DNA of 64,000 bases from Symbiodinium sp. CCMP2592 (Eukaryota > Sar > Dinophyceae > Suessiales > Symbiodiniaceae), in the NCBI GenBank assembly GCA_905221615.1, contig CAJNDT010006016.1, positions 242,001 to 306,000 on the forward strand, written 5' to 3'. The notes under the pieces were generated by a model that searched no databases, had not been told where the DNA came from, and was given only the letters and a program-made list of their open reading frames with translations. The position numbers and the translations under genes were made by a program. Below, one piece after another: positions 5,920-58,512 of this stretch (its first letter is position 1; each line of letters starts with the position of its first letter).

Positions 5920-6214
5920 TCCGCCAGTCGATGATGTTCACATGCACTCGGCCCTCTTGTTCCAAATCACCCTTCCGGGCAAAACCGACAAAAGCACCTT
6001 TCTGAGAGTACACCAACCTCTTCTCAAGACTACTCTGAAGCAAATCATCACACTGCCTCTCATCAAGCTCTGCCCCGACACTGCTGTACAGGCCTGCATC
6101 GTGATACGTAACCAACTCTGCGTCGTACCCTAAAGGCTTGAACACGATCTCAGTCCTGTTCCTCACGACTTCTCGCACAGCTCGATTGGCTCGAACTAAA
6201 TCGACAATCGACAA
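5741..6214 (-). pseudogene. RNase H of the copia element, first fragment (frame-shifted)
   Basis: After the 7-bp tandem duplication TCGACAA-TCGACAA (plus strand 6201-6214), homology continues in another frame with IVDLVRANRAV. It then reaches the catalytic-Glu region SSFAAETHAAIMG typical of copia RNase H. The frame runs on to a stop at 5741, but homology passes to a third frame near 5780-5810. Confidence 0.75.
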
Positions 6215-12200: not shown

Positions 12201-13817
12201 CCATCGCGCTCCTGCCACTGTCCTGGCACAGCATGTGTCGCTGAGGGCTAAGGTGTACCGATCGGGATCCCTAGGGGCGTCCTGAACATCACTCGCACAT
12301 ACCTCTCGTGCAAACTGGCCGGTGCCCAAGTTCACGGGTTCATCCATCATGGCGAGGAACACTGTGTCAGGAAGGGCTAAGTCATCATCCTCGCTGTCTG
12401 ACAACTGTTCGTTGACCACGGCCAACACACTACGCTCCTGGCTGTTCTCCGATTTCCCGTAATATGGGCAAATGGCATCACCGTGCCAGTGTCCATAAAC
12501 GGTGCGTCCTCTAGCCTTGCACGCACTGCATGGCATCTTTGCTTTCATGGCCTTGATTCTCTGTTCCCTGGCCTCGCTGCTCTCCTGCTTGGAGAAGCCC
12601 CTCGCTTTTTCTATTTCGGCACGTTTGCGAGCAGCCTGCGTGAGGATCACCTCCAATTCACCTTGTAGTTCTTCCGCCCCGGCCTCGTCAGGATCACCTT
12701 CTTCTGGGACATCCTGATCTGGATCTTCCTCGGTCGTCGCATGCACTTGACGTGCATTGCCGGGCTTTGCCTTCCAGTGGCGAAAGGGCTGCCTTGTCGA
12801 AGACGAAGTGGAGTTCTCTTCCTCGCGCTTGACCTTGGGGACAATCGCCATCAGGGCCTTCCGGAGCTTGACATAATCATACTCACCACCAGCTGCCGAT
12901 ATCACTTGCTTGCGAAGATCAGCTGAAAGGCCTGCTTTCTCCAAGAACCAGTAGGCCTTCGTCAGCCCCTCGAGCTTCGCACCGATGTCCTCCAAGCGAG
13001 TCAGGTGCTTACGGAACAGCATGTCGTACTCGATAAACTCCTGGCCCGCTGTCCTCTTGAACTCCCGGTAGAACTCGGTCAATGTCGAGAAAACCCGCAT
13101 GTGCTCCAACGGCTCGAGCTCCTGATACAAGTACTTAAGCAAGCGCTGGACGCCCTCCTCGTGCTTAAGCTCCTGTAGGTTGATGCCTTCCGTCGCCGTC
13201 CATGCCGCTCCCGACAGCCTCTCCATAAGCTTCTGAGCTCTATAGCTGGGGTCGATGCCGGTGGCGCTCTCGAACAAACGCACTCTCCTCTCATAATCCC
13301 GCATCGGAGACTTCCCATCGTACTCTGGTACATAATCTTTGCCAGTCTTAGGGCTTGCTTTGTTCTGACTGCCTGCTTCGCTAGATTCTTTCGCATCATC
13401 ATAAGTCTCAGCAGTCTGATCATCCGTTACCGTGGTACTCTGCACTGAAGCCCGCCGCTGGCCTGAGTCATTGGTCGCCTCACGTCCTGGGCCGCTGTCC
13501 CAGTGCCACGAGGTTGCTGCTTGGTGCCACTGATAGCCTGGCCAGTTGGACTGCCTATCATAATAACCCGCCCAGTTATTCGTAGACTGTCGCTCCCATT
13601 GGCCTTGCCACCAGCCATTCTGCCACTCACTAGGGGCTCGGTGCTGCGAGCCTGCCGTGTTCTGCTGGTATGCTGCGTTACTTGCGTCCCAGGACGCCCA
13701 GTATTGATTGCCTCGCCATCCGCCGTCATGTGGTTGCTGATGCACAGCACCGCCATCGCCGCTGCCACTGCTCTCCACATTCGCGGTAGCTTCTGCCGGG
13801 CCTGTCGCTTCTGACAT
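6150..13817 (-). CDS. copia Gag-Pol polyprotein with extra domains
   Basis: ATG at 13817 is preferred; an in-frame TTG lies 15 nt upstream. The frame has 2555 codons. Residues 30-110 are a Trp/Gln-rich Gag leader, followed by a helical Gag. A CCHC knuckle (C430, C433, H443, C450) comes next. The protease-like region has SDTCCARTVAG at D527, where DSG/DTG is usual. A 2OG-Fe(II) oxygenase-like segment spans about 760-885 (H810, D812, H866/H869/H872, R878). A Rossmann/methyltransferase-like stretch spans about 1327-1450. Integrase has H1649, H1654, C1682, C1685 and D1713, D1772, E1808 (spacing D-x35-E). RT has D2315 and the HVDD box at D2408/D2409. Homology stops near 6214 at a 7-bp tandem duplication; the last residues up to 6150 are out-of-frame. 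Between about 10090 and 10900 this frame is low-complexity and another frame looks coding. Confidence 0.9.
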   Translation of the reverse strand: MSEATGPAEATANVESSGSGDGGAVHQQPHDGGWRGNQYWASWDASNAAYQQNTAGSQHRAPSEWQNGWWQGQWERQSTNNWAGYYDRQSNWPGYQWHQAATSWHWDSGPGREATNDSGQRRASVQSTTVTDDQTAETYDDAKESSEAGSQNKASPKTGKDYVPEYDGKSPMRDYERRVRLFESATGIDPSYRAQKLMERLSGAAWTATEGINLQELKHEEGVQRLLKYLYQELEPLEHMRVFSTLTEFYREFKRTAGQEFIEYDMLFRKHLTRLEDIGAKLEGLTKAYWFLEKAGLSADLRKQVISAAGGEYDYVKLRKALMAIVPKVKREEENSTSSSTRQPFRHWKAKPGNARQVHATTEEDPDQDVPEEGDPDEAGAEELQGELEVILTQAARKRAEIEKARGFSKQESSEAREQRIKAMKAKMPCSACKARGRTVYGHWHGDAICPYYGKSENSQERSVLAVVNEQLSDSEDDDLALPDTVFLAMMDEPVNLGTGQFAREVCASDVQDAPRDPDRYTLALSDTCCARTVAGARWMARHLRMLRRFGEDIFVADEARPFRFGGGPRILSSHAVIMPLRFEGAQGVARLRVSVVDQEVPLLVSKSALKQLGMVMDLDRGVVDFRGLCTRVPLRETQAGLCGFQINLEPTRERLECPPEEFLDEDKEVVLPAQKPGDQVSMVDYDPVQLEAAEQVRATRLNIQQCEDHARNLYRANDYRYEAMLELVRSLPSRVTRRHRDINGRGGRTNEAWVAGLYVHGGWTGVTRRTSRYPQVVRYMNAFMRYHLHDPDASWTSITLMRNVATDIHVDCHNRKDTASVTVTFGEFSGGQLWIANDKVASDVCTWKQDSEGKWMKGELKFDPHIPHATHTWQGERWCLSVYTIRTADQVSGEIRKALHKLKFPFWKAASRTFGIEQHATFMSSNHQEPQQSADDMGDDDEQNEPNQTPQPDLSSQSCTEPLELRRSCDHHAHDDSEEQGGLRCGGQREVCGSDQRAAQAYPRPFEGALGFGTAAQGDECTSSELEEERSTGASRALLPLRGGRGGPGTGLSLGPLATEQADHGAGTLGSRCSGSGPDGSRSGSFGEGTTVSPVPNPDARAGESADSRTFLGMSSFPQLQDDASLGVRRTAHQGDPGRVGSLREEQGQGEGSEVLASASTQATEGNDGPSRHYNVVGRVLGQDGANSRRGRQRQRARRARPQGGQHELDQGGSRDDHADSKRQEGPGKRQGSRPRQVRAVNRDHDGSPSSEETSEPQCGRAKQSLSESEIRDRIREGNARRRDLKKGVAKRLLGNARAIVAGVFVATAALIGAAQEAVPYAARIRPDMIEISGSQAFVSQSFSRWGWHTVEPVDLTTDLRDQRNREQLTEWIGNHAPRLVIMSECLPSENKTSNRLEGSRSQVQRKERKRSERWQEVWQFVHDVCESQMSRGDHVVLDLPMSCEGRARTFSDMICRHPRMQTVVSLHPTPSLAKWVTSCERIADELGQFGGTSAHHSPDGCADTRRREVAKAMCRGYIRHLKDVDPGRIRRMLRSVSARIRRKVQTGDSDIHELRWNEKNVAKALKQWSAVYAQGDEMDDGDDPELIPDVEEPNGDPSDHHMEDQARDDREPNQTVKAKLASHGISFEVPPGRRLSEAIRHGLVKAHCNLGHPSKEDLARFLKLGGAKQVVVEAVQWMKCITCAHARRPSTHRTTNIPPCQLAFGDEVQLDCVCIRDANKENHWFLSILDRATSYHMLELMRDHSPMELHRAFERGWSKWAGSPMKITTDLEGGFVGRDFMQPILQSGTCLAAIAGTAHWQAGKIERHNQTIKEMMFATIRQTSPVGREEMRKLAREVAWAKNSLVREHGWAPIALVFGREPRVYGELHFQGNPTAYHPAVGEAGSDVAMRMRFRYHAKLEFVRSQARQMLLRTAHNRTRKLPVPKIGQMVFFWRAGNQKKGESQSKWLGPGYVVGLQDGNAWVAVGGRCFLVAGEHLREAVGDEKNFGNPEIQKAIALFKKVPSEATYEDLLGQQDPDAEPMDVEDQPMNQEVADELMGENEVFDTEGLSQEHSSMCQQVGWRVDAAGNPVLVSHRAWAYRTPEPRYAGVRFPYRTSWVYAQGKWECCEREVKWMELEDQHQFIPNGPVAGLITIFQNRTRKENCLDDVPTNIKRRKKDPVAHQVHMVQRPTESKTKLKRMLEKEIPYASIPLKDKPLYEAAEQKEWQSWLDYDSCEVLSLEQSRHVEEQQPDRILPSRYVFRNKNAGLLDSDGNELPVKAKARLCLQGHLCPDSRTGQVQVDSPTVERVSTMVFLHLVTSLGWTRDWFIGDISNAFLQGAPLTGKPDMFMRQPKQGLRGLKPGQLLRLLKPVYGRPDAPRAWYNELARILEEEMGFSKCRTDPAMFALRDERGTLRGLMIVHVDDVMYCHDGGQLGKDVEAKMTKRFPFGTWMRVHEQTSGVTYCGKEVKVVVKDGETCVTLAQNAFIDGRLQTMKIENSRLKQLDARATQTELTDYRSIVGSLQWLAVQSRPDIAFECNQLQKRISDLRIVDCRFSSSQSSCARSREEQD
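10091..10900 (-). CDS. zinc-ribbon protein in a frame overlapping the polyprotein
   Basis: A second minus-strand frame stays open from 11074 to 10091. It looks protein-like from about the ATG at 10900, where it reads MPTMTPKNKEDYVVAV. It contains a Cys4 zinc ribbon, C-x2-C ... C-x5-C with 18 residues between the pairs, and the phrase EPFWGCHRFPSC, which resembles the C-terminal zinc ribbons of type IA topoisomerases. A charged Lys/Glu tail follows. Over the same bases the polyprotein frame is open but reads as Gly/Arg/Ser-rich low complexity. Either two compensating frameshifts displaced this segment from the polyprotein, or it is expressed as an overlapping ORF or by recoding. The first ATG at 11074 is less likely, because the N-terminal 50 residues look non-native. 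Confidence 0.6.
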   Translation of the reverse strand: MPTMTPKNKEDYVVAVSGRCAVPISELRKHTLDRLKELWALVRPPKGTSALPPNWKKSDLQGLRELYSRFVVDEVGREQDFHWARWPRSKLIMELELWAADAAEAAQTDRDLEVSGKGPLCPQCRIPMLERVNRLTREPFWGCHRFPSCKMTLPWEYDGRPTKEIQAELEASEKSKAKEKDQKFLPPRRPKPRREMMDPAGTTMSSDGSWVKTGPIPVEEDNVSEPDERGPREVNTNLTKEEAEMIMQIRNAKKAQASGKGRGHDKSEQ

Positions 13818-13835
13818 CCGTGCTCCGCGCAACCA
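13818..13835 (-). promoter_or_regulatory. probable tRNA primer-binding site
   Basis: One base inside the 5' LTR the minus strand reads TGGTTGCGCGGAGCACGG. Its complement ends in CCA, like a tRNA 3' end with acceptor strand CCGCGCA and discriminator A. It differs from the usual plant initiator-Met site (TGGTATCAGAGC). The primer tRNA is not identified. Confidence 0.55.
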
Positions 13836-13836
13836 A

Positions 13837-14013
13837 TGCGAACAACCGCTTTACAAGACAGCCTCCATGCAAGCACGCAAACCGCGAGAGGCCTTTTCCT
13901 GCTTCACCAAGAGCCGCGCTGCTGCGGTTTCAGTGGTTTAACACAGCGGTTCAAATCAACGTGTTACAAGAGCATGCGCATCGACAGGTCTGGCTTACTC
14001 AGGCACTTTCACA
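13837..14013 (-). repeat. 5' LTR of the copia element
   Basis: This 177-bp copy is the upstream LTR in element sense, flanked outside by GAAAA (14014-14018). It would carry the promoter. At 177 bp it is short for a copia LTR. Confidence 0.93.
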
Positions 14014-14737: not shown

Positions 14738-15778
14738 AGAAAACATTGTAATGCTCAAAAACTTCCAAAATTTCCAACCTTGAAACTCACAAAACACTGT
14801 AATGCTCAAAAAATTCCAAAAATTCCAAAATTCTGGCATCTATGGCCAGCACGGGGGCAGATTCCTTTAAAGTTTGGAATTTTTTGAGCATAGCAGTGTT
14901 TCGTGAGCTTTGGGGCAATGAAAAGTGGATTTTTTTTGAGCATTACAGTGTTTTGTGAGTTTTAAACCACGAAACACTGCTATGCTCAAAAAATGAGCTT
15001 TGAGGCTGTGAAAAGTTGATTTCTTTTGAGCATTACAGCGTTTTGTGCGTTTTAGACGACGAAACACTGCTATGCTCAAAAAAAGTGAGCCTTGAGCCTG
15101 TCACAAGTTGACTTTTTTTGAGCATTACAGCGTTTTGTGAGTTTTAAACCACGAAACACTGCTATGCTCAAAAAATTCCAAAATTTCTAACCCTGAAACT
15201 CACGAAACACTGTAATGCTCAAAAAAATTCCAAAAAAACAAAATTCTGGCATCTATGGCCAGGCCGGTGGCAAATTCTTTAAAACTTTGGAATTTTTTGA
15301 GCATAGCAGTGTTTCGTGCGTTTCAAGGCTTGGAAAAGTTGATTTTTTTGAGCATTACAGTGTTTTGTGAGTTTTAAACCACGAAACACTGTAATGCTCA
15401 AAAAAACAACATTTCACAGCCTCAAAGCTCGTTTTTTTGAGCATAGCAGTGTTTCGTGGTTTAAAACTCACAAAACATTCTAATGCTCAAAAAAACAACT
15501 TTTCACAGCCTCAAAGCTCATTTTTTTTTGAGCATAGCAGTGTTTCGTGGTTTAAAACTCACAAAACATTGTAATGCTCAAAAAAATCCACTTTTCATTG
15601 CCTCAAAGCTCACGAAACACTGCTATGCTCAAAAAATTCCAAACTTTTAAGGAATCTGCCCCCGTCCTGGCCATAGATGCCAGAATTTTAGAATTTGTGG
15701 ATTTTGTTGAGCATTACAGTATTTTGTAAATTTCAAGGTTGGAAATTTTGGAATTTTTTGAGCATGGCAGTGTTTCGT
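14738..15778. repeat. foldback array of about 20 alternating short inverted repeats
   Basis: The core motif TTTTTTGAGCATAGCAGTG, with the variant GAGCATTACAGTG, occurs about ten times in each orientation, alternating. Each copy is followed by TTTCGTG or TTTTGTGAG. Neighbouring opposite copies form hairpins about 60 nt long. The whole block is also an imperfect palindrome centred near 15257: a segment with GGCATCTATGGCC at about 14834 recurs in inverted form at about 15670. Frames at 14597-14887 and 14867-15079 are repeat artefacts. It resembles nested MITE or foldback DNA, with no coding capacity. Confidence 0.85.
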
Positions 15779-16011
15779 GCTCCCCATGCCCCAAGAACCA
15801 CGAAAGCGTAGATCTTGCGGGGCGGGGTGAGCATATATATATATATATATATGTGCATATTGCTGACCGTTCGCACATCATTAAACTCATTTACTCGCCA
15901 TTCTGCAATGTACTAGACCCATCTGCTTTTGGGGTACCGCCCCCGTGCTACCACACCACAGCTGTGCGTACCTTGCCCAGTCTCCGGCCGGCTCTGCAGT
16001 GATCACCACGG

Positions 16012-16057
16012 TTTAGGGTTTAGGGTTTAGGAACCCTGCACCCTAAACCCTAAACCC
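16012..16057. repeat. head-to-head telomere-like repeats
   Basis: Three TTTAGGG units are followed directly by CCCTAAA units in the opposite sense, forming a short inverted pair. This is interstitial, not a chromosome end. Confidence 0.8.
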
Positions 16058-16259
16058 TAAACTTGATTTTGTGTTGCCCCCCGAAACATGATTCTCGTTA
16101 CAGCCATGGTCCCAAACGAGCAGGGTCCTTGTTTTCAGCTGTGAGGGTTGCAGGCTTTAGCGGTAGACAACGTTTTCGCGCACCAAAACCCCGGAGTCAA
16201 GCACCAAAACCCCTGCTTCAAGCACCAACCTGCTTCAAGCACCAACAAGCCCTGGTTCC

Positions 16260-19070
16260 GCCACGACCCTAAGCTCCCCCCACCCTCAACCACCCTTCCC
16301 TGCACGAAAGTTTCCCTGTCCTGCCTACCCGACCGCACCCTATCCCCCTCCCAACTCTACCCTACCCCACCCTAACCTAGCCTGCCCTTCACCACCCTAC
16401 CTTTCCACACCCTCCGACCACCCTTACCTCCCCTGTGTGCCGCCTTTGACCCCATTCTGCTAACTTACCCTTACCCTCTGCCCTTGCTGCCCTGCCCCAC
16501 CCTACCCTATAAACCCCTACCTACCTTATCCAACCCGCCTAGCCCGAAACCCCATCCACCTCCCTTCTCTCCGTAACTGCATCCACCGGCACCAGACCAC
16601 AAAACCTATCGAACCCCATCACCGCAACTTCTTGCAGCAACCATCCACCCGCAGCACCCGAAAAAAACCCACCAAAACCCCAACCCCATCTCATCTTCTG
16701 CTACCCAAACCTACTGCACCCCAGTGTGAAGAACCATACCCTGCCCTACACCGACCCTGGCGTACCGTACCCTCCCCTCCCCTACCCTGCAAAACCCACC
16801 AACCCAACACACGCGCACAACCCCACTTTACCCTACCCCACCCTAACCTACCCTGCCCTAACCAACCCTTTCCTGCCAAACCCTAATTGACCCCGAACCC
16901 ACCCTAACAAACCACTTATCCTGCCAACTCAAACCCCTGCCCCACCCTAGCCTTTAGGCCCCTAACCCACCCTACCCTAATCGATCCTGCCAAACCCTGC
17001 CCTGCCCCTACCCAACCCTTTCCTGCCAATGCTCCACACAACTCCAACCACCCGCACGCACACCCTACCCTACCACACCCTACCCTACCCTGCCCTAAAC
17101 TTCACCCTACCCCATCCTGACCTACGTCAAATCCTAATTTAACCTGCCTGCCCTTGACCCCATTGCGCTAACTTAACCCACAGCAGCCGCACAACCCTAC
17201 CCTACTCTTCCCCGCAAAACCTACACAACGGGAACCCAACCCTGCCCTACCCTACCCTGCAAAAGCCGGCCCAACTCTTCGCCACAAAACCTACAGGATT
17301 CCAACCCACCAAGCAACTACCCAACCCTACCCTCCCCTACCCTACCACACCCTACCCCAAACTACTCTTCGCCCTCCTTGCCTGCACCCTAAACCCCAAC
17401 CCGAAACTTATCACCCGAACCTCCCCTGCCTGCCCGAACCTGCCCTCACCTACCCTATCCCTCACCTGACCCTAACCAACCCTTTCCTGCCCCACAAAAC
17501 CTACACAACTCCAACTACCCACAAGCACACTACCCTACCCTACCCTCCCCACCCTGACACACCCTGTCCTACCCAATCCAAGCCAACCCTCCTAATTTAA
17601 CCTACCCTAACCTACCCTACCCGAACCTACCCTACCACCGCAAGCAACTACCCTACCCTACCCTACCCTCCCCTCCCCTACTCTACCCCAAAATACTCTT
17701 CACTTGACCCTACCCCACCCTGACCTACCCTGCCCTGCAATCCTTTCCTGCCAAACCCTGGACCTTTTTTCCTGTCCGAACCTACCTTGACCCCATCCTG
17801 CCCTACGCTAACCTACCCTATCCCTCGCCTGACCCCCAACCCCTTTCCTGCCAAACCCGAACTCCCTGCCTAGCCAACCCTAACCTACCCCACCCCTAAC
17901 CAACCCTGTCCCACCCTACTTGACCCACCCCACTCAAGCTTCCACCATTACCTCCCCTGCCTGCCTGCCCTTGACCGCATTGTGCTAACTTACCCTTACC
18001 CTCACCCAACCCACAGCAGCCGCACAACCCTACCCTACTCTTCCCCGCAAAACCTACACAACGGGAACCCAACCCTGCCCTACCCTACCCTGCAAAAACC
18101 GGCCCAACTCTTCGCCACAAAACCTACAGGATTCCAACCCACCAAGCAACTACCCAACCCTACCCTCCCCTCCCTACCACACCCTACCCCAAATTACTCT
18201 TCGCCCTCCGCACCCTAAACCCCAAACCCGAAACCTATCACCCGAACCTCCCCTGCCTGCCCGAACCTGCCCTCACCTACCCTATCCCTCACCTGACCCT
18301 CCTACACAACTCCAACCACCCACAAGCACACTACCCTACCCTCCCCACCCTGACACACCCTGTCCTCCCCAATCCAAACCAACCCTCCTAATTTAACCTA
18401 CCCTAACCTACCCTACCCGAACCTACCCTACCACCGCAAGCAACTACCTTACCCTACCCTCCGCTTCCCTACCCTACCACACCCTACCCTCCCCAAAATA
18501 CTCTTCACTCAACCCTACCCCACCCTGACCTACCCTGCCCTGCAATCCTTAACCCCAACCTTTTTTCCTGTCCGAACCTACCTTGACCCCATCCTGCCCT
18601 ACGCTAACCTACCCTATCCCTCGCCTGACCCCCAACCCTTGCCTGCCAAACCCGAACCCCCCAGCCTACCCGAACCCCCTTCCCAACCCTGTCCCACCCT
18701 ACTTAACCCACCCCATACCCTAACGACTCGTTCCTGCCTTCCCTCTGCCTGACCCAAAACACACTCTGTCGAAAACCAAACCCTGCCCTACCCCACCCAC
18801 CCACCCCGCACAACCCCACCTTAAACCACCCGCAAGCAACTACCCTGCTCTTCACTTCACCCTACCCCACCCTGACCTACCCTGCCCTACCCTGCCCTAC
18901 CCAACCCTTTCCTGCCAAACCCTGACCTTCACTATCCTGCCACCCTGACCTTTCTTGCCTGCCCGAACTTGACACAACCCTGTCCTACCTACCCTACCCT
19001 ACCGCTCTCTGCAGCAGCAGCCCCCTTGACCCCCTCCTTGCCAACTCAACCCCTGCCCCACCCTACCCGA
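16260..19070. repeat. C-rich degenerate pentamer satellite with a ~0.8-kb higher-order duplication
   Basis: About 2.8 kb of the plus strand is almost G-free and built from degenerate CCCTA/ACCCT units mixed with CCTGCC and AACCC. A longer unit recurs: the block starting CAGCAGCCGCACAACCC at 17181 returns at 18014, and the block with CCTTTTTTCCTGTCC near 17763 returns near 18559. The period is therefore 796-833 bp. Frames across it are artefacts. Confidence 0.85.
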
Positions 19071-31421: not shown

Positions 31422-32039
31422 GATTACTCTTCCGGACCTCCATCGAGACTTATGGGCGTATGGAGGTTCCGTTCAAGCAGAGACCTGCGCACTTCGAGAA
31501 TGGAAAGAGATTGCAGTCGGCGCTCGTCCCGATACCCATTCGGCTTCATACCTTAAGTCTCCTCAAAACGGAGCGTAATTTGCAAGTAGGATTGGGTTAA
31601 AGATCATGATTCTCCGTTTTCGGAGCCGTAATCGCCGTAATCCCCAACACGTGAGAGTTGCAAAAGTAGAGGGCGCTGCTATTCAACTGCAGTTGTGTTC
31701 TCACCCTGTTAACCCTACTCGAGCGAAGCCCCTGCACGAAGACTTACGAACGAGGTCTGACACAAGTCTGACACTCGCTTAGGACTTATGTATATAACTT
31801 TGGAGCCTGCGCAGGCCCTGTAGCTCCAAAGACGAAAAAACGAACTCAGCAAGTCAACCCTGAAACCCTAAGCCTCAGTTTAGGGTTTAGGGTTTAGGAC
31901 CATACATAAACCTAAAGTAGCTCTCCATTGACTCTCCATAACAAAACCATAAACTATCTGACCATTCAGCTTTTCGGTGGGGTTGTTGCCCTAAGCCCTA
32001 GACCTGTGCCCTAAACCCCAAACCCCAAACTCCAACACC

Positions 32040-32162
32040 CAACCCTAAACCCAAAACCCTAAACCCTAAATCCTAAACCCTAAATCCTAAACCCTAAACC
32101 CTAAATCCTAAACCCTAAACCCTAAACCCTAGATCCCTAAATCCTAAACCCTAAACCCTAGA
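32040..32162. repeat. interstitial telomere-like array (CCCTAAA)
   Basis: This is the longest such tract here, with about 17 CCCTAAA-type units, several altered to TCCTAAA. It is flanked by unrelated sequence on both sides, so it is interstitial. Confidence 0.9.
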
Positions 32163-40197: not shown

Positions 40198-40327
40198 GAC
40201 ATCTCGCTTTCACGCAAGATGAGAACACTTTTTGGAGGCGTAGCGGGAGGCGGCGAAGTGCAAACGAAATCGCATTCCAGATCGAAACATCTCAGAAGTC
40301 GATCGGAGCGAATCGTTGCGTATCACC
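40198..40327 (-). repeat. split direct repeat B2 (outer 3' end)
   Basis: 130 bp; its outer end is GACA, next to host CCTGA. A 46-bp unique spacer separates it from A2. Confidence 0.92.
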
Positions 40328-40373
40328 CCACCACTCCAATATGTAAGAATAAATACAGGGCGGTGTGGGCGGG

Positions 40374-40469
40374 CTGAAAAGCTTCACGGTCCTCGAGCGG
40401 GCAACAGCTGCGAAGTCTTGCTGTTGCCGCTCGTACATGTCACTACGTGCACACGTGCACTACACGACA
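40374..40469 (-). repeat. split direct repeat A2 (internal)
   Basis: 96 bp; overlaps B1 by the four bases GACA (40466-40469), the presumed recombination core. Confidence 0.92.
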
Positions 40470-40595
40470 TCTCGCTTTCACGCAAGATGAGAACACTTTT
40501 TGGAGGCGTAGCGGCAGGCGGCGAAGTGCAAACGAAATCGCATTCCAGATCGAAACATCTCAGAAGTCGATCGGAGCGAATCGTTGCGTATCACC
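40466..40595 (-). repeat. split direct repeat B1 (internal)
   Basis: 130 bp; begins just past the end of the RNase H frame and matches B2 except at one base. Confidence 0.92.
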
Positions 40596-40616
40596 ATAGG
40601 TGTGCCGCCTGCACCA

Positions 40617-41768
40617 TCACAGCACACCGGGAGCCCTAAACCTCTCAGAGCCCGTCAGTAGTTCTTCGAAGACGCCGTCCCAGTCTCGTTGCAGCTCCGT
40701 CCAGCTTTCGGCTCGAGCGTGTCGAAGGTCCCCTCTGCTGACCGAGTCACTCACGTTGGCGGAGGACGTCACTCTTTGCCAAGCGGGTCGAAAGGAGTTC
40801 TCCTCGAGGAAGCGCCACGCATGTTGGAGCAAGCAATTGATCGACTCGTCTTTGCCAAAGCCACGAGTGAGTGCGTGTCGTGCAGGTTCGTTGTCGACGA
40901 ACAGCAATACGTGGCGATCGAGCTGTCTCTGCATGGCGAACAGAGGGAGAATCTGGGCCACGATCTCCAACATGTAGATATAGGCGCGGCGACTCGTGAA
41001 TGCCCGCACGAACCAGTAAGGCACACGTCCATGTGCGAAGTAGGTCCGCCCCTGCACCGTGACGACGAAGCCCCATCCGTTTCTGAGCGTCTCAGGTGGC
41101 GTGCGTCCCCAGCTGGGTATGTCCTCGTCGGAGGGCTTCCAGTCCTTGTCGAAGAGGTTGAAGAACGCGTCGGCGTAGAGCACGGAGTGCGCCTCCTTCT
41201 GGAAAGGAAAGGTTCTGGGCGGTGCGTGGCGTAGGCTCCATCTGAGGAGGCCGATGCCATGGCGAAGCTGTCCGTCGAGTCGCCAATTCTGGTGGTGTCT
41301 GCCTGCACCGGTAAGTCTAGATCTCCGAAACAAAGGCCGAAGCGCTGCTGCGTGCGATCGCCCTCGAAGTGACTGGCAGTAGAACTGTAGCTTCCCTGCT
41401 AGGCTCGCTGCTTCGTGAGGCGGAAGACGATCTTGAGTGAGCACGTCGGCGAGCATCTCGTCGAGCCGTTGTCGACGTTCTTCGGTGCCCTGGACGGTGA
41501 CGGAGTCGTTGTTGACGACGATGCTGACGCCCTGGATGACCTGCTGCGAAGCGGGAGGCTGTTCCTTGGACTGCTTAAAAGAAAAACCCAAAGCCTTGCA
41601 GAGTCGTCGCGAGGCGTCGAAGGACGAGCGGGCGAGTTCCGTGGCCTCTGCGCTGCCGAAGTCATCGACAAAGTGAAGTGCGGGCGTGAATATGCATGCC
41701 CGACATAACCACCCCATGAGGTCTGCTATTCTGCAGTACGACCACACGCTCGCCACTGACCCAAACAT
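40617..41768 (-). CDS. reverse transcriptase C-terminal part and RNase H
   Basis: It continues the previous frame after the TAA; ATG at 41768 (MFGSVASVWSYCRIADLMGW). RT motif C is HFVDDFGS with D35/D36, FVDD rather than YADD. The thumb follows, then a DIRS-type RNase H with D200 (LYADAF), E268 (MLEIVA), D292 (LFVDNEPA) and D341 (SDSVSRGD). All acidic positions are present. It ends 22 bp before repeat B1. A single stop codon separates it from the upstream half, so this copy makes no intact RT without suppression. Confidence 0.88.
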   Translation of the reverse strand: MFGSVASVWSYCRIADLMGWLCRACIFTPALHFVDDFGSAEATELARSSFDASRRLCKALGFSFKQSKEQPPASQQVIQGVSIVVNNDSVTVQGTEERRQRLDEMLADVLTQDRLPPHEAASLAGKLQFYCQSLRGRSHAAALRPLFRRSRLTGAGRHHQNWRLDGQLRHGIGLLRWSLRHAPPRTFPFQKEAHSVLYADAFFNLFDKDWKPSDEDIPSWGRTPPETLRNGWGFVVTVQGRTYFAHGRVPYWFVRAFTSRRAYIYMLEIVAQILPLFAMQRQLDRHVLLFVDNEPARHALTRGFGKDESINCLLQHAWRFLEENSFRPAWQRVTSSANVSDSVSRGDLRHARAESWTELQRDWDGVFEELLTGSERFRAPGVL

Positions 41769-41783
41769 TAGGACAGTGTGACG

Positions 41784-44069
41784 TTAAAGGGTCACTCCGT
41801 CGGGCGTCGCGAGGATGAGGTAGGTATGTGACGGGTGGAGCGCTGGAAGCTGTCGGTACGCTGCTTCATGGTCGAGGCCCCATATGAGCATCTCTGCCTT
41901 CGGGTCGACCTCCTTGATGGCCTTGACCAGTTGTACGTAAGAAGCCACGTCGTGGTACGGCGGGGAGTCCTCGGCTGCGACCGTCGCGTTCGCGAAAGAC
42001 CTTCGCCAGTCCTCGGCTCTGCGGACTTTGGGGCGGCCGTCTGAGCCAACCTGGTGCACTGCAAAAGCGAAGCAAGTCGGCTGGTGTTCGTCGGGTCCTC
42101 GCAGCAGCTGACTTGTGTGCGAGTGCGAAGCGAGAGGCACAGCTGTTTTGGGCCAACATGTCGGGTTGGAGAAAGGGCCCTCCATTCTGCCGAGCTCCAC
42201 GTCCGCGGCGATCTCATTTGCCATCTGTTTCCAGCATGGATCGACTCGGCACCGGCGAAGCTTGTCGACGACGTACTGCCTGTTCAGGTGCATGAACTCC
42301 TGGAGGTCGAGCGGGTTAGCGTAGCGCTCGTCATTGCGTCGTTTCCATCCCAAGCCCGGGGCAAGAGGCCCAAGAAGGCGAAAACCTGTGGTGAGCTCGT
42401 CGAAAATGGTCCTGTCCTGCCAGCCGAACAACTCGCATATCTGTCGAAGCGCGGGCAGCTGTAGGGTGCACACCCCGCGTTTGCTTCGGTAGGCTTTCTG
42501 AACGTGCGGGCTCAGGCTTTCGTACCAACGCCTGGTGTCATCCTCCAGGTCCATCACGAGTTGCTCGACCTGTTCGACCACTGCGATGCGAAGGTCCGCG
42601 AGGTGACTTCTCATTCGAGACCAGATTTGGATCCATTGTTGTAATCCTGGTTCCATGTGAGCGTCGCGGTGGTCAGGATGCGGCATCTGTCGTGACAGTC
42701 TCCAATGTTCCGAGGGGTCCTGCAAGTAAGATAGGTCGAAAGGGTCGTACTCGCCGGGTCCTGGGCCTAGAAGAGGAGGTCGTCCCTGCCACAAGTTGGC
42801 AGCTATGTCCATTGCGGTTCCCCCCAAAGGGTTCAGCTCCTTGGCTGAGGCTGCGGGCGTCGCGGCGAACACGGCCATGATGAAAATCAGGTGCGCGGCT
42901 CCAGCGTGCCAGCCGTTGGCAAGTGCTTTGTGGCGTTCGTGTTCGGAGAGCTTGCTGGTCCAACCCTCCGGTAGGTGATGCCATTGTTCTTTGACTGAAG
43001 GAGGCGGAATCACGAAGCGTCCCTGGCTATCTACCATCATCACCCCTGCCTCATAATGCCAAGGAGCGAAGCGTTGTCGATCTGCACGCCAGCGTTGGTT
43101 GGCCTCGCTGCTGATCTTGCCCTTGCTGCTGCGTGGCGCAGGGCGACCCTGAGGGTCATCCGCGGGTGTGGTGAGGCACGGCAGAGGCTTGCCTTCTTCG
43201 ACCAAGCACCTTGGCAGCGAAAGTCCCGAGGTTTTGAAGGCGTGCGGGTCGTCCTTGACGAGGTCGAAGTGAACTCGCGGAATCCCTTGCATGCTTGTCC
43301 ACCTCAAGCGAAGGGGGCAGTCGGATCGGTGCGCGATCTCTTGCCAGGGTATCCTGCACCACCAGACCCGTGGTCGGGATATCGTACCAAAATCTGCGGC
43401 GTCGTGGACGACTGCGGGCGCGTCGAGGACCTTCTCGATCTTGCGCATGTCGGCCCGGTTCTGTGGTATGACGTTCTCCACCATAACGATCGCGCGAGGG
43501 CGTTGCCATTGCTTCTCGAGGTCCGCGATGAGCTGTGCGAAGCGCATGAACTTGGAGCCTTCTGGTCCTTGGTGTCCAGGCGCATCGGCTCGAATGCGGG
43601 AAAAATCATGACATGGGGGACCGCCTGCTATCACCACGGTAGCCCGTCCTCCGGGGTCGAGCTCCTGAACAAGTTCATGTAGGGATGCGGGCGTTTCTTG
43701 TTCGAAGTCGCCGCGGTGAATGACGTCGGGGAAGTGCTCTTGTAGCAACATCTTAAGGTTGGGGTCGATCTCCCATGATGCTCCACGCCATTGGAGACCG
43801 TTGCTCCTGCAATGCTCGTCGCAGATCAGACATGCTGTGCCCAGGCCGTCGAAGAAGCTGAGTATGACGATGTCGGGGTTGAGGTCGCCATGCTTGATGC
43901 GGACAGTCTCGGCCTTGCTGCGGAGCGTGGCCTGTTGGGGTCGCTGCGCGTCGCGATGATCGGGAGATCTCCTGGAGCGGGGCAAAGGCGACCGCGAGCG
44001 AGCGAAAACTTGGTCGTCTCCGCTGTGCGTTGGGTCGGGTCCACCCCTGCGGGATGGCCCGTGCTGTCC
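41784..44069 (-). CDS. DNMT3-like cytosine-5 methyltransferase fused to the N-terminal part of reverse transcriptase
   Basis: The frame opens after a TAG at 44070-44072 and has no ATG before the enzyme. Counting from the TTG at 43985: motif I ILSFFDGLGTA (40-50), Glu of WEIDP (E72), motif IV GGPPCHDFS with catalytic C125, motif VI ENV (170-172), RPRVWW (204-209) and a motif X-like LANGWHAGAAHLI (about 355-367). The layout resembles DNMT3-type enzymes more than DNMT1. After residue 500 comes the RT fingers and palm, with motif A IWGLDHEAAYRQLP (D705). The frame stops at TAA 41784-41786 in mid-RT and resumes in the same frame. It would methylate cytosine in element or host DNA. Confidence 0.85.
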   Translation of the reverse strand, partial: GQHGPSRRGGPDPTHSGDDQVFARSRSPLPRSRRSPDHRDAQRPQQATLRSKAETVRIKHGDLNPDIVILSFFDGLGTACLICDEHCRSNGLQWRGASWEIDPNLKMLLQEHFPDVIHRGDFEQETPASLHELVQELDPGGRATVVIAGGPPCHDFSRIRADAPGHQGPEGSKFMRFAQLIADLEKQWQRPRAIVMVENVIPQNRADMRKIEKVLDAPAVVHDAADFGTISRPRVWWCRIPWQEIAHRSDCPLRLRWTSMQGIPRVHFDLVKDDPHAFKTSGLSLPRCLVEEGKPLPCLTTPADDPQGRPAPRSSKGKISSEANQRWRADRQRFAPWHYEAGVMMVDSQGRFVIPPPSVKEQWHHLPEGWTSKLSEHERHKALANGWHAGAAHLIFIMAVFAATPAASAKELNPLGGTAMDIAANLWQGRPPLLGPGPGEYDPFDLSYLQDPSEHWRLSRQMPHPDHRDAHMEPGLQQWIQIWSRMRSHLADLRIAVVEQVEQLVMDLEDDTRRWYESLSPHVQKAYRSKRGVCTLQLPALRQICELFGWQDRTIFDELTTGFRLLGPLAPGLGWKRRNDERYANPLDLQEFMHLNRQYVVDKLRRCRVDPCWKQMANEIAADVELGRMEGPFSNPTCWPKTAVPLASHSHTSQLLRGPDEHQPTCFAFAVHQVGSDGRPKVRRAEDWRRSFANATVAAEDSPPYHDVASYVQLVKAIKEVDPKAEMLIWGLDHEAAYRQLPALHPSHTYLILATPDGVTL

Positions 44070-44108
44070 CTATTCCTGTTGTTGCCACTGCTTGCGGCCA
44101 TCCTGATT

Positions 44109-45350
44109 CTAGCGCCAGTCTGACGTGCGCCACTGCTGTCGATCGTCGTCGTGCTGGCGTCCTCGACCGTATCCCTGCCAATGTTGACGATCGTCGTCGT
44201 GCTGACGGCCGCGGCCTTGGTATTGCTGCCACTGGCGATCGAAGAATGCGTTGTGGCGTTGTTTCCCGCCACCTTTGCCGTTGCCCTTGTTCTCGGAGCG
44301 CTCCCACCAGCGTTGTTGGCCTTTGCCTTGTCGACCTTTGCCACGTCCTCTGCCTCCACGCGGTGTGTCTTGCCAGGTAGCTTCAGTGTGGCGAGGAGCG
44401 CGGGCGGGGCGATCGGGCTGAACCTCGGTGCTCATGGCCTCCTGCAAGAGCTGGCTGTCGGACATGATCTCGTGGGAGATGTCTTTGAAGGGCTGCTTCT
44501 TGCGAAGCGCCAAAGCTATGCGCCAAGATGTGTTCTCCCAGTGGACCTTGAGCTGGTCGATCTTGTTGGGGCGACTGCGCACCAGGCGTTGCCACCATGC
44601 GAAGTACTCGTCGATGTCGTTCTCCGGGGCGTACTCGATGAATATGAGGGCGACGCGAACGGCCTCCAAGCAGTCGAGAAGGGCAACTTGGCTCCTGGGC
44701 TTCCATGGCGTCTCCGGTTCGGTCTCGAGCTGCAGGTCGGAGTTCACGACCAGTGTGGTCACCTGCTCCTGGGATCGTGCTCGCTTGCGGGCGGAGCTGA
44801 GGGTGTTGGGCAGGAGCGCAGCGGTGAAATGACGGTGTTGCACGATCTCCTCGAGGGGAATCGCGTTGTGTGCGAGGTTCTTGGCGTCCGTCAAGAGCTT
44901 GGCGAGCACGGCCTCAGCCCCCAAGAGGGTCATCTCGGGGAACTTGCGAGGTACCCCATGTATAAGTACGGCTTCGTACTTCCGGATCTGTTGTTGCCAG
45001 TAGCCGGGTGGCAGCTCCTTGGTCTTTGAGGTTGCCGTCGTAGGTGTAGTCGTCGTGCTCGGGGAGCCGATCGCCGTCGAGGGTGCGGTCTTCTCACGGG
45101 CCTTCTTCCATGCGTGGCGAAGGCGAGCGCGGACGACTGGCATGTCGGCGACGTTCACTTCCAGGATCTTCCCGTCCTGGAGCTTGAAGGGCGACGCGAG
45201 GGGCTGCACCATCGCCTGGTCGAACTCCTTAACGTCGTCACCCATTTCGGCGAAGATCTCTGTCGTGAGTATGCCTTTGGTCGCGACGTAGGCGATGAGG
45301 TCCTCCGACGCGCCGGCATCAGAGAGAATCGCTCGAAGGCCGGTGTCCAT
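44109..45350 (-). CDS. RGG-rich ORF3 of the retroelement
   Basis: ATG at 45350 (MDTGLRAILSDAGASEDLIA). The N-terminus is a helical module that looks distantly like the one at the start of the recombinase. A charged helical middle follows. The last 80 residues are Arg/Gly/Gln-rich (RGGRGRGKGRQGKGQQRWW) with two copies of GRGRQHDDDRQ, an RNA-binding style tail. The frame ends at TAG 44109-44111 and is in the same frame as the methyltransferase ORF downstream. It may be a second Gag/nucleocapsid that leads by readthrough into pol. Confidence 0.7.
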   Translation of the reverse strand: MDTGLRAILSDAGASEDLIAYVATKGILTTEIFAEMGDDVKEFDQAMVQPLASPFKLQDGKILEVNVADMPVVRARLRHAWKKAREKTAPSTAIGSPSTTTTPTTATSKTKELPPGYWQQQIRKYEAVLIHGVPRKFPEMTLLGAEAVLAKLLTDAKNLAHNAIPLEEIVQHRHFTAALLPNTLSSARKRARSQEQVTTLVVNSDLQLETEPETPWKPRSQVALLDCLEAVRVALIFIEYAPENDIDEYFAWWQRLVRSRPNKIDQLKVHWENTSWRIALALRKKQPFKDISHEIMSDSQLLQEAMSTEVQPDRPARAPRHTEATWQDTPRGGRGRGKGRQGKGQQRWWERSENKGNGKGGGKQRHNAFFDRQWQQYQGRGRQHDDDRQHWQGYGRGRQHDDDRQQWRTSDWR

Positions 45351-45501
45351 GACGATAGTGATGCGAGCTGGTCGAGCTATCTTAAAAGGGGGCTGCGGCA
45401 AGAAATGTCACATGTGACTCATGCTGGATGCGAGCGATGAACAGAGCACAGTCAGTCGTGTTTCTCCGAACGTAGCGCAGCGAGGCTGCGACTCAAAACT
45501 C

Positions 45502-47235
45502 TCAGCTCGAAGAGGAGTCGTAGCTGTCGGTCGACTCGGTGTCCGATGGCGGCACTTCCGCTGCCTTCTTGCGCGTCTCGGCCCCTGCCTCGGGGAAGCA
45601 CTTCAGGCACAGGTTCTGCGAACCGTCGTCGTGTGCTCTGGTGAAATTGGAGTAGCCGTATGGCCATCCGCAGCGGGCGCGCCATTTCGCTGGCGGCCGC
45701 GAGGACTCCTCGGGGTCCCTCATGTGCGCTTTGCGCTTGCAAACCAGGTCCGGCCTGTCCTGGATCGACTCGAGGCGCGCGGCTATGTCATCAAGCGATC
45801 CGATCATTGCTGCCACGGCCTCTTTGTCCTCTGCGTCTGTCTTAGTTGAGCGAGCTTTCTTTGTCGGTCGAAGCGGAGGCGCTGGCTCGGACTCCTCCAG
45901 GTTGTGCACGAGGGTCCAGGGGGGGGAGTCGTGCGCCTTGTCCTTGAGGGCCGCGGGGCCAGGCGGAAGAGTCGGAAGGCCGGCGGCCGCAATGCCGTAG
46001 AGGGCGTCTTCCAGTTCGGTGTCCTGGACGTAGCGCTCGATCGCGCGACTCCCCCATCTTCCGATCAACATGATCGTGCTCACCGGTATTCTCATGCGAC
46101 ACAAGTGTTGAGCGCCCGAGACTCGAAGGCAGTGTCCCCCAAACCTGTTCACCTCGGGCTCAAGGGGAGCTCCGGCTCTGGTCAGCGGCACGTCGGCCGC
46201 GGTGAGAACTGCGTGGATCGCCTCGATCGTCTGCGCCTTCGTCATGGGCTCGCCAGTGTCGGCTGCGAAAATAAAGGCCTCGGGGTCGGAAGAGCAGTAG
46301 TCGGCGATGCGGAGCGCCGCGTGGTAGGGGCAGATCGTCTCCGGGATGGTGCCACAATAGCACGAGTGTCTTCGCTGCACCATGGACCCCACGGTGTCGT
46401 TCTTGCTCGCGGACAGGGTGAGGCACACTTGCTTTCTTTCGGAGTCGAGCGTCATGTGCTTGACACGGAGCGCGGAGAGCTCGATCTCGCGGCAAAGAAA
46501 CCAGGATCCCAGGACCACCATGGCATGGTGAAAGCGAAGTCCTTCCTCGAGCAGGTCAATGCAGATGTCGAGGGAGTCGAGGCGAAAGGCGTCCTTGGGG
46601 GAGTTGGTGCCCATGCCTCGCTCGATGGACCTGATGGCGTCGCGTATCGCCAATTCCACGGGCGGGGGAACAGCTTGGCCCGTGACATGTATGTGCTCCT
46701 TGCGAGCTCGAGAGAAGTACTGAGCGGAGCTGCGGTAGCCCCCACTGCGAAAGCTCGTGCCGACCTTCTCGATGGTGTCGGCGGTCAGCGGCACGGGGCT
46801 TATTTTCCAGGCCGCACAAATTTTGCACCAAGTGACCCAGCGAGCGTCATTCGGGGCTCGCGCGGAGCGGGAGTACACATTGTCCCGAAAGTCCCGCAAG
46901 GCCTCCTCTGAGTTGAGCGGGTCGGCAGCTGCCAAGGCCTTGTTCAACATACCACCAGCTGAGGTTCTCGGAGCAGGCTGGTCGAAGCGCGGCGCGGGTC
47001 CGCGGGGCGGGGCGCTCCCTTGGCTGGCTTCCATGTGGTCTTTGTACCCCGACATGACCAACATGACCTCGATCTCACCGGCGAGTCGATGATCAACGTG
47101 GTTCGCGCGGAGTGCTGCATCATGTATGCTTTCGAACCCCAGCTCGCTCATCTTGTCGATGGTTTGCGGCGACAATCCGGCCGAAACCGCTGCTTGCATG
47201 AAGTCCACAAACGAGTGGTAGTCGAAAGCCGACAT
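45502..47235 (-). CDS. tyrosine recombinase (integrase) of the retroelement
   Basis: ATG at 47235 (MSAFDYHSFVDFM); the open frame extends to 47451 but starts there with TTG. The N-terminal 50 residues form a small helical module. The catalytic domain has the tyrosine-recombinase set: R249 in FLCREIELSALRV, K278 in SASKND, H368-x2-R371 in GGHCLRVSG, W394 in GRWGS and the nucleophile Y402 in IERYVQD. The set is complete, so the enzyme looks competent. A Lys/Glu-rich linker and a Cys cluster (RCGWPYGYSNF ... CLKCF) follow, then an Asp/Ser tail. It would join the circular cDNA to a GACA-type target. Confidence 0.9.
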   Translation of the reverse strand: MSAFDYHSFVDFMQAAVSAGLSPQTIDKMSELGFESIHDAALRANHVDHRLAGEIEVMLVMSGYKDHMEASQGSAPPRGPAPRFDQPAPRTSAGGMLNKALAAADPLNSEEALRDFRDNVYSRSARAPNDARWVTWCKICAAWKISPVPLTADTIEKVGTSFRSGGYRSSAQYFSRARKEHIHVTGQAVPPPVELAIRDAIRSIERGMGTNSPKDAFRLDSLDICIDLLEEGLRFHHAMVVLGSWFLCREIELSALRVKHMTLDSERKQVCLTLSASKNDTVGSMVQRRHSCYCGTIPETICPYHAALRIADYCSSDPEAFIFAADTGEPMTKAQTIEAIHAVLTAADVPLTRAGAPLEPEVNRFGGHCLRVSGAQHLCRMRIPVSTIMLIGRWGSRAIERYVQDTELEDALYGIAAAGLPTLPPGPAALKDKAHDSPPWTLVHNLEESEPAPPLRPTKKARSTKTDAEDKEAVAAMIGSLDDIAARLESIQDRPDLVCKRKAHMRDPEESSRPPAKWRARCGWPYGYSNFTRAHDDGSQNLCLKCFPEAGAETRKKAAEVPPSDTESTDSYDSSSS

Positions 47236-47812
47236 GGCGTGGCGTGCGCGCGCGTGCACAACGTAAGAGCAAAACAACCTGAGCCTTGAAGAGAACGGCT
47301 GCGCAAAGCGGGCGTCCAGCTTCTTGTGCATGAAGTGGTATGACCTGACAGGTTCGAGCTGCGGGGCTTCGGGAAAGGGAAGGTGCAAGCACTCGAGACT
47401 GTCGTTGCGAGCGAGACGAACCGACCACGAGGCACGACATGAAATGTACAAGTTCGTCAGCAGGCGTGCGACAGCGGGCTAGAAACCAAGCAGTCAACTG
47501 CACATGCCCTTGCAAACAGAGTCCCTTGCAAGCGCTCGAGGGAGAGAGTCAACGCGAGCGGAGACCTAATGCAACAGAAGAGGCACTCCTGTCAGCTGGC
47601 TTCGGAAGAGAAGAGAGTCAGAGAAAGGAAAGACCTAATGCGAGAGGGGAGGAGCAGCACTCACTCACTCCTGTGGTTCGGGTGGGGGGAGCGGGCTCGT
47701 CGCAAAAGCTCGGACCCCTTCTTTTGACGGCGCGAGCGGCGCGGGGTGCGAGGCGAAGCGGTGATCGATGTACGACCGCCGGTCGCCGTGGAAGAATTAG
47801 AAGGCCCGCTCT

Positions 47813-49309
47813 TCAGCGCCTTCCTGCGGAGCGAGCGCGCTCGCATGGGCCGCAGAAATGGTTGCCGTGTGCCGTCCCCGATCGCGTTCGGATGATGGGA
47901 CGAAAGCACCGGCCCTGACATACTGGCGTGCGGTCGGCTTTGCGCGTCTCGCAGCCCAAGTTGCAGTAGCCTTCCACGCGGTGGTCGGCATATTTGCCGG
48001 GTGGAGGCTGTGCCGGGACGCCCTGTGGCAAGTTCCAAACGACATTGGTCTCGCCCGTCAGCAAGTCGCATGGCTCAGGCCACCCCTCCCAAGCGCGAAG
48101 CCGCTCTTCACGATCGCGGCGACGAGCGAGGCGAGCCTGGTCGCGAGACACCTCGGCGGGCGAAGGAAACGAAGCTTTTGCCACTGGCGGGTCGGGCACC
48201 GGAGTCGGCTGACTCGGTCCAGGCGCCCCCTCCTCCTCGTCGGTGTCCGCCGCTGTGGCGTTGGCCCCTGCTGCGGTCGAAGCTCCTGCCGTGGAGGACG
48301 GGCCGGGCTGAGCTGGCGACACGCACAGCAGCCTGCGTGAGACGACCCTCGGCTGGTCGTCATCATCATCCTGGTCGTCCCCATCGTCCTGGCCACCGTC
48401 GTCGTCCTGCTCCACCGGGTCCTCGGGCGTGGCGTCCTCGACATCAGAGGTGGATACTGGCTGCGAGGCAGCCGCAGCAGCCTGCATGAAATCCTCAAGG
48501 TCGGGCGCCAGCTCGTCGAAGAAAACTTCCACCGGCGGCGAGCTGGGCGGCGGCAAAGGCGGAGCGGGCGAAGGCGAGGCCGAGGGCTGTGGTGCCATAA
48601 GCTCAAGATCCTGTGGCACTATGTCCTCATACGGCTGGGTGAAGACTGCCGCCAAGGTGCTGTCGTAGTCGCTGGGTCGCTGGGGCGGTCGCTTCTGCTG
48701 AACCACGGCCTTGGCCGGCGTAGCGATCGGAGCTGCGGAGGCAGCCTTTGCTTTGGCCGGCGAGGCGGGCGGATCCTGGATCGTCGCCTTCTTGGGCGTG
48801 GTGGTAGACGAAGCACCCTTGGCCGAACTTAGAGCTTTCGTCTTCGGCTGCTCAGTCCCCGTTGGCTGCGTAGGTGAGGTCGTTGACGAGCTCGGCGGCG
48901 GGCTGGTACTCGACGGCTTCGGCGGGCTCGTTGGCTTAGACGGCATGGCCTTGAGCAGAGGGCCAGCGGCTTTCCCCAGGCTCTTGAGCAGCGGTCCGGG
49001 CATAGGCGAAGGAGTTGTACCTTGCGTCAGCATCTGCTGCTGGGCCAGCTCGAGCGTGCGGTCGCGAGCCGAGATCCGGGCCGCGTAATGGGCATCGGTA
49101 CCCATGAGTACCGCATGCCCAATCCCGAGAACTCTGCGAAGCTGAACAGAGCCAAGCGAGCGAAGCAAGACACGAATGTCATCATCGCCAAGGCGGGGCA
49201 GAGCCTCGAACACACCCATGGTGTGACGGAACTGTTCCACCGTCATCGCCGCGTCGCTGCCACCGGCACCAACCACATCAGAGCTGGTAGTAGGCGGAGT
49301 CGAAGACAT
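47813..49309 (-). CDS. Gag-like ORF1 of the recombinase retroelement
   Basis: The first ORF in element sense. ATG at 49309 starts MSSTPPTTSSDVV; an earlier in-frame ATG at 49405 lies inside repeat A1 and would add 32 Arg-rich residues. The N-terminal part is helical. A long Pro/Ser/Thr/Ala-rich disordered middle follows, with acidic DDDGGQDDGDDQDDDDD-type tracts. A C-terminal Cys/His cluster closes it (GYCNLGC ... VCQGRC ... HFCGPC), likely a zinc-binding nucleic-acid module. I recognise no named family; position and zinc cluster suggest a Gag role. Confidence 0.7.
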   Translation of the reverse strand: MSSTPPTTSSDVVGAGGSDAAMTVEQFRHTMGVFEALPRLGDDDIRVLLRSLGSVQLRRVLGIGHAVLMGTDAHYAARISARDRTLELAQQQMLTQGTTPSPMPGPLLKSLGKAAGPLLKAMPSKPTSPPKPSSTSPPPSSSTTSPTQPTGTEQPKTKALSSAKGASSTTTPKKATIQDPPASPAKAKAASAAPIATPAKAVVQQKRPPQRPSDYDSTLAAVFTQPYEDIVPQDLELMAPQPSASPSPAPPLPPPSSPPVEVFFDELAPDLEDFMQAAAAASQPVSTSDVEDATPEDPVEQDDDGGQDDGDDQDDDDDQPRVVSRRLLCVSPAQPGPSSTAGASTAAGANATAADTDEEEGAPGPSQPTPVPDPPVAKASFPSPAEVSRDQARLARRRDREERLRAWEGWPEPCDLLTGETNVVWNLPQGVPAQPPPGKYADHRVEGYCNLGCETRKADRTPVCQGRCFRPIIRTRSGTAHGNHFCGPCERARSAGRR

Positions 49310-49340
49310 AGCGGCGCGGGCGAGCGAACAGCGGCTATGC

Positions 49341-49436
49341 CTGAAAAGCTTCACAGTCCTCGAGCGGGCAACAGCTGCGAAGTCTTGCTGTTGCCGCTCG
49401 TACATGTCACTACGTGCACACGTGCACTACACGACA
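49341..49436 (-). repeat. split direct repeat A1 (outer 5' end)
   Basis: 96 bp; matches A2 with one mismatch. It contains a short palindromic GTGCACGTGTGCAC and the ATG at 49405 of the Gag-like ORF. Confidence 0.92.
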
Positions 49437-58299: not shown

Positions 58300-58512
58300 G
58301 GGCCTCAACCCTAAAATCCCTAAACCCCCAACCCTAAACCCGAAAACCCTCAAACCATAAATCCCTCAACCCTAAACCGCTAAACCCCAACCCTAAACCC
58401 CAAAAACGCTAAACCCCTAAAGCCTCAACCCGAAACCCCCTGCCTTCAATCCTAAACCCCTAAAACCCCCAACCTCAAACCCTCAACCCTAAACCCCCCA
58501 AATCCTCAACCC
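58300..58512. repeat. interstitial telomere-like tract (CCCTAAA, degenerate)
   Basis: About 25 degenerate CCCTAAAC/CCCCAACC units end right at the donor side of the exon at 58518-58595. TTTAGGG-type units lie on its other side (58625-58735). Confidence 0.85.

Follow-up and report, generated by a model that had tools for sequence, protein, structure and literature searches.

The stretch of DNA analyzed here (the window) comprises 64,000 nucleotides (nt) of contig CAJNDT010006016.1 from Symbiodinium sp. CCMP2592. Its minus strand carries a retroelement with five successive open stretches, namely ORF1, a tyrosine recombinase open reading frame (ORF), an RGG-rich ORF and the first and second parts of Pol, enclosed by split direct repeats in the order A-ORFs-B-A-B. 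In Pol, a DNMT3-type cytosine-5 (C5) methyltransferase domain is followed by reverse transcriptase (RT) and RNase H. The features are:

40198..49436, minus strand: whole element, layout A1-ORFs-B1-A2-B2 (from the split direct repeats)
49341..49436, minus strand: repeat A1, 5′ end, with a hairpin-forming stretch (95 of 96 positions the same as in A2)
47813..49426, minus strand: ORF1, putative protein, Met codons at 49405 or 49309 (ORF list)
45502..47478, minus strand: tyrosine recombinase ORF, Met at 47235 (PF00589 at E 0.0067, below the cut-off, and 31 homologues)
44109..45407, minus strand: RGG-rich ORF, Met at 45350 (ORF list; related stretch in relatives)
44069-41784, minus strand: first part of Pol, methyltransferase and start of RT (ORF list)
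42843..43877, minus strand: DNMT3-type cytosine-5 methyltransferase domain of Pol (profile, PDB sequence and fold comparisons)
41550..42134, minus strand: RT domain, FVDD box from 41672, split by an in-frame stop (family profile and BLASTP)
41784..41786, minus strand: in-frame stop codon within RT (ORF list; full-length relatives are open at the same point)
41783-40617, minus strand: second part of Pol, rest of RT and RNase H (ORF list)
40686..41189, minus strand: RNase H domain (family profile, E 4.4e-78)
40466..40595, minus strand: repeat B1, overlapping A2 by 4 bp (direct-repeat comparison)
40374..40469, minus strand: repeat A2 (direct-repeat comparison)
40198..40327, minus strand: repeat B2, 3′ end (direct-repeat comparison)

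The ends of the element are exact, being set by the split direct repeats. A single mismatch separates A1 from A2 over 96 positions, and a single one B1 from B2 over 130, a likeness far beyond chance. TGTC forms the first bases of A1, the last bases of B2 and the overlap of B1 with A2. In the 30 bases on each side no duplication was seen by inspection beyond the TGTC shared at the ends. The GC content was 0.611 in the element vs. 0.519 and 0.516 in its flanks. No second copy was found in the window, where the sequence outside the element matched neither the element DNA (E ≤ 1e-5) nor the relative proteins described below (E ≤ 1e-4). The hairpin of repeat A (RNA fold −35.6 kcal/mol, z −1.34) was not significant, with 22 of 200 shuffles folding equally well, and was dropped as a special signal. 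Rfam models and tRNAs were both absent from the window. TTTAGGG runs are scattered near the element.

For the comparison with other elements, three protein searches yielded 100 relatives (29, 31 and 40 new), the best 7999-8000 word-sharing candidates being scored in each. The named hosts are Symbiodinium necroappetens, S. natans, S. sp. CCMP2456, CCMP2592 and KB8 as well as Effrenium voratum, and several named Symbiodinium proteins are among the close sequence relatives. Two scans of viral contigs revealed no relative, the first without any match and the second with 17 pattern matches, none of which was confirmed.

Family profiles built from the relatives placed the recombinase domain at 46983-46063 (E 1.6e-139), the methyltransferase at 43877-42843 (E 1e-166) and the RT at 42134-41787 (2.5e-52) and 41783-41550 (8.9e-34); since the window's own sequence is one of the 14 rows of the methyltransferase, RT and recombinase profiles, these E-values are inflated and to some extent a matter of construction. 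No such overlap exists for the second RT piece or for the RNase H profile, which has 11 rows. BLASTP, which uses no profiles, gave approximately 30-80% identity to relatives over most of the length of both Pol pieces. Pfam (E ≤ 1) listed PF00145 (E 0.0017) and the recombinase family PF00589, both below the cut-off, and no RT or RNase H family in the ORFs of the window. The relative P0021 matches RVT_1 at 1.8e-07. The initial annotation had named failure of the methyltransferase motifs in a profile search as a refutation; the domain passed the sequence and fold comparisons, and its Pfam family stayed below the cut-off. The RT and RNase H parts named there were both placed, the RT being cut by the stop at 41784-41786.

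The methyltransferase motifs are FFDGLG, GGPPC, ENV, RPR and NGWH, and the catalytic motifs are retained in most of 31 aligned domains. Among solved C5 methyltransferases DNMT3 was the best match both by sequence and by fold, the class being assigned from these PDB comparisons. A Dam-type (N6-adenine) enzyme was rejected, in agreement with the initial annotation: it is C5 cytosine enzymes that the domain resembles, and none of the five ORFs matched a family of adenine methyltransferases.

All 31 recombinase homologues match the recombinase profile, and the Met codon at 47235 coincides with the start of the relative P0031. An alignment of the window with 13 of the 31 relatives shows no variation in any of the 14 sequences at ORF residues R330, K359, H449, R452, W475 and Y483, which we take to be the tyrosine-recombinase catalytic set (R-K-HxxR-W-Y). 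Together with the split repeats and the sequence and fold matches of the methyltransferase, these residues bear out the earlier description of the locus as a tyrosine-recombinase retroelement with a DNMT3-like enzyme. The RGG-rich part described there is likewise present, and 13 of the 100 relatives contain a similar stretch (E ≤ 1e-4). Its structure model (mean predicted local distance difference test score, pLDDT, 69.3) had no PDB fold match at E ≤ 0.001; the product is possibly a nucleic-acid-binding or Gag-type protein. ORF1 had been labeled Gag-like. This label found no support in Pfam, where only FliG_C appeared below the threshold (E 0.018) and no family above it; no homology search was made for ORF1.

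The RGG ORF and Pol lie in one frame with two in-frame stops between them (44109-44111 and 44070-44072). The stretch GQHGP...GGPDP after the second of these stops (44070-44111 region) recurs in P0017, where the frame is open. Since the RT is interrupted by a stop at a point that is open in full-length relatives, this copy, in its assembled form, is unlikely to be autonomous. The RT stop may be an assembly error.

The 69 proteins from the two Pol searches were analyzed for the order of their domains. Methyltransferase and RT were both found in 40, with the methyltransferase first in 40 of 40, while 27 had a methyltransferase without an RT match, one (P0067) only the RT and one (P0029) neither; other layouts are under-detected in these counts because the profiles derive from the same family. 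The identity distances of the two domains correlate with r 0.935 over 30 elements (the window and 29 relatives with long enough domains). This value was reached in 0 of 2,000 permutations, which are not independent trials because some elements are up to 99% alike. Judged from these distances, the methyltransferase and the RT have diverged together as one unit.

Among the relatives, four recombinase/Pol pairs (P0033/P0010, P0036/P0017, P0032/P0061 and P0038/P0064) agree in the length of the longest contig (6587, 204880, 46153 and 186892), which suggests, short of proof, that the members of each pair lie on the same contig. A single gene model, P0066 of S. sp. CCMP2592, runs from the C-terminal part of the recombinase through RGG, methyltransferase and RT to RNase H, and P0033 of S. 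sp. CCMP2456 has the recombinase followed by RGG.

The tyrosine recombinase residues, the RT and the RNase H, which mark the DIRS order, are all present in the element. DIRS1-like elements proper, with inverted terminal repeats and an internal complementary region, were rejected because the terminal repeats here are direct and split. In Ngaro-like and PAT-like tyrosine recombinase (YR) retrotransposons the recombinase is usually found downstream of the RT. VIPER has the same ORF order as TATE. Split direct repeats are shared by the Ngaro-like and PAT-like elements, which also have a tyrosine recombinase, and by VIPER/TATE of kinetoplastids in the form A1 ... B1-A2-B2 (PMC6681497). The VIPER/TATE ORFs are tabulated as Gag-like, YR and RT/RNase H, with the RT in ORF3 of TATE; they differ in their hosts, and no DNA methyltransferase is reported for them in the available text (PMC6681497).

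The methyltransferases known from DIRS-class elements are of the Dam type according to the available text of PMC5890265. The same text describes SymbioDIRS-Dnmt3 of Symbiodinium, with an A-coding region-B-A-B repeat arrangement, a DNMT3 domain in Pol together with the RT, and the tyrosine recombinase in a separate ORF (de Mendoza et al., 2018; PMC5890265). Two structures are described, which differ in the domain order of Pol and in the order of the recombinase and Pol ORFs; one of them must therefore have the recombinase upstream (PMC5890265). The window element agrees with this description in its A-B-A-B repeats, its DNMT3-class domain in a Pol ORF with RT, its separate recombinase ORF and its Symbiodinium relatives. 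It differs in ORF1 and the RGG ORF, which are unmentioned in the available text, and in the interrupted RT of this copy. As regards identity and layout, we consider the element to be a recent but interrupted copy of SymbioDIRS-Dnmt3, a tyrosine-recombinase retrotransposon of Symbiodinium, with a probability of about 0.88. In the full-text literature the name SymbioDIRS was found in PMC5890265 only.

The initial observation is thus correct, but the kind of element has been known since its description in 2018 and is no new class. The question of whether this carrier class with an upstream recombinase had been described is answered by SymbioDIRS-Dnmt3 with its shuffled recombinase/Pol order (PMC5890265). 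To the published family, the present analysis adds the exact repeat ends, a likely junction sequence, the ORF layout and the divergence of methyltransferase and RT as a unit. The element, whose ends are known exactly, clearly illustrates a retrotransposon with a DNMT3-type methyltransferase of its own. In the host lineage, most of the genome is reported to be methylated at CG (PMC5890265).

SymbioLINE-Dnmt is also a Symbiodinium retrotransposon with a DNMT, but it is a long interspersed nuclear element (LINE) with endonuclease and target duplications, and its DNMT belongs to a Symbiodinium-specific class other than DNMT3 (PMC5890265). The LINE endonuclease (PF03372) was absent from the five ORFs at E ≤ 1. 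KnitGypsy-Dnmt3 is a Ty3/Gypsy element with a DNMT (PMC5890265), and the clade is named in PMC6338049, which cites the 2018 work. Such a DNMT-bearing polyprotein is found in P0100, a Gypsy-type relative whose DNMT adjoins RNase H on one side and the zinc-binding domain of the integrase on the other; it is of the long terminal repeat type and has a DDE integrase in place of the tyrosine recombinase.

In P0097-P0099 the DNMT lies in the middle of the polyprotein, where by eye it seems to have an RT-like part on one side and an RNase H-like part on the other. Pfam detected only PF00145 in these three proteins, and the family RT and RNase H profiles gave no match. They share a block GR..P ... RW ... 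R..P..Y with the window family, which is missing from the aligned P0100. For the two architectures, independent acquisition was concluded in PMC5890265. That one captured DNMT3 was instead passed between unrelated retrotransposon lineages, rather than a host DNMT3 being captured twice, appears improbable. As a separate observation by eye, RNase H-like pieces flank the DNMT of P0097, P0098 and P0099, as if it were inserted within RNase H.

Beyond the observed anatomy, enzyme classes, conserved motifs and co-inheritance, a replication cycle can be proposed. From the arrangement of the repeats, reverse transcription of the element RNA would yield a circle. The recombinase would then insert this circle, at its B-A junction with the common TGTC, into a TGTC-like target, and no target duplication would arise. 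By analogy with the published assay, in which two SymbioDIRS-Dnmt3 catalytic domains with a nuclear localization signal methylated CG de novo in yeast (PMC5890265), the enzyme carried by Pol may add CG methylation de novo. The element's own complementary DNA (cDNA), before or at integration, is the leading candidate for its target, tentatively and at slightly less than even odds; action on cDNA is favored by the position of the domain in Pol next to the RT. This self-marking idea, also part of the initial annotation, is found as a hypothesis in PMC5890265 as well.

Several points weigh against the reading as a self-marking SymbioDIRS-Dnmt3 copy. The match to the family rests on the published text description, and neither another copy nor an empty site was seen in the search, which covered the window. 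Residues 479-560 of P0066, between RGG and methyltransferase, align to the window in another frame, so that copies or gene models are not uniform in how RGG is linked to Pol. P0067, whose Pol shares 98.5% identity with P0005 in the later part, has no methyltransferase while the rest of the frame is open, so that the domain may not be needed to copy; this Pol is fused to an N-terminal portion of the RGG ORF, and the missing domain reflects a deletion or an artefact of the gene model. The CpG observed/expected ratio was 1.074 in the element vs. 0.719 and 0.784 in its flanks, so that no mutational (deamination) trace of self-methylation is visible, although the copy is young. CpG depletion was thus discarded as a trace. 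In the published comparison, significantly fewer CGs were reported only for SymbioLINE-Dnmt and not for SymbioDIRS-Dnmt relative to DIRS without DNMT (PMC5890265).

The missing CpG loss would also fit an enzyme acting mainly on the host genome, or countering host silencing. The yeast assay fits such a role, and effects on the host methylome are a matter of speculation in PMC5890265; the methyltransferase is however part of Pol and adjoins the RT, and this role is rather doubtful. Still less likely is that the domain has become a passenger which no longer matters to the element. P0067 would agree with this, as would the reports that subfamilies with and without DNMT expand similarly and that the DNMT is not required for activity (PMC5890265). 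The retained catalytic motifs and the nonsynonymous to synonymous substitution ratio (Ka/Ks) below 0.2 in the majority of DNMT comparisons (PMC5890265) argue against it. Finally, methyltransferase and RT as different, nested insertions, which the initial annotation had named as its refutation and for which the three stops breaking the frame could be cited (44109-44111, 44070-44072 and 41784-41786), are rejected as extremely improbable, since in the window a single ORF spans the methyltransferase and the first part of the RT, the two domains occur in one Pol in constant order in all relatives that have both, and their distances correlate.

Outside the element, the window contains a single ORF of 2,566 aa at 6150-13850 on the minus strand, which encodes the polyprotein of a retrotransposon of the Copia type (RVT_2, E 1.8e-13). 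It is followed at 14740-15779 by an AT-rich tandem array with a period of approximately 410, within which 90-bp sub-arrays are located at 14904-15176 and 15343-15612; by eye, their units look reverse-complementary. Telomere-like arrays of the CCCTAAA type were found at 32009-32160 and 58303-58497. The region 16001-18000 shows an extreme GC skew of −0.658 over 2 kb.
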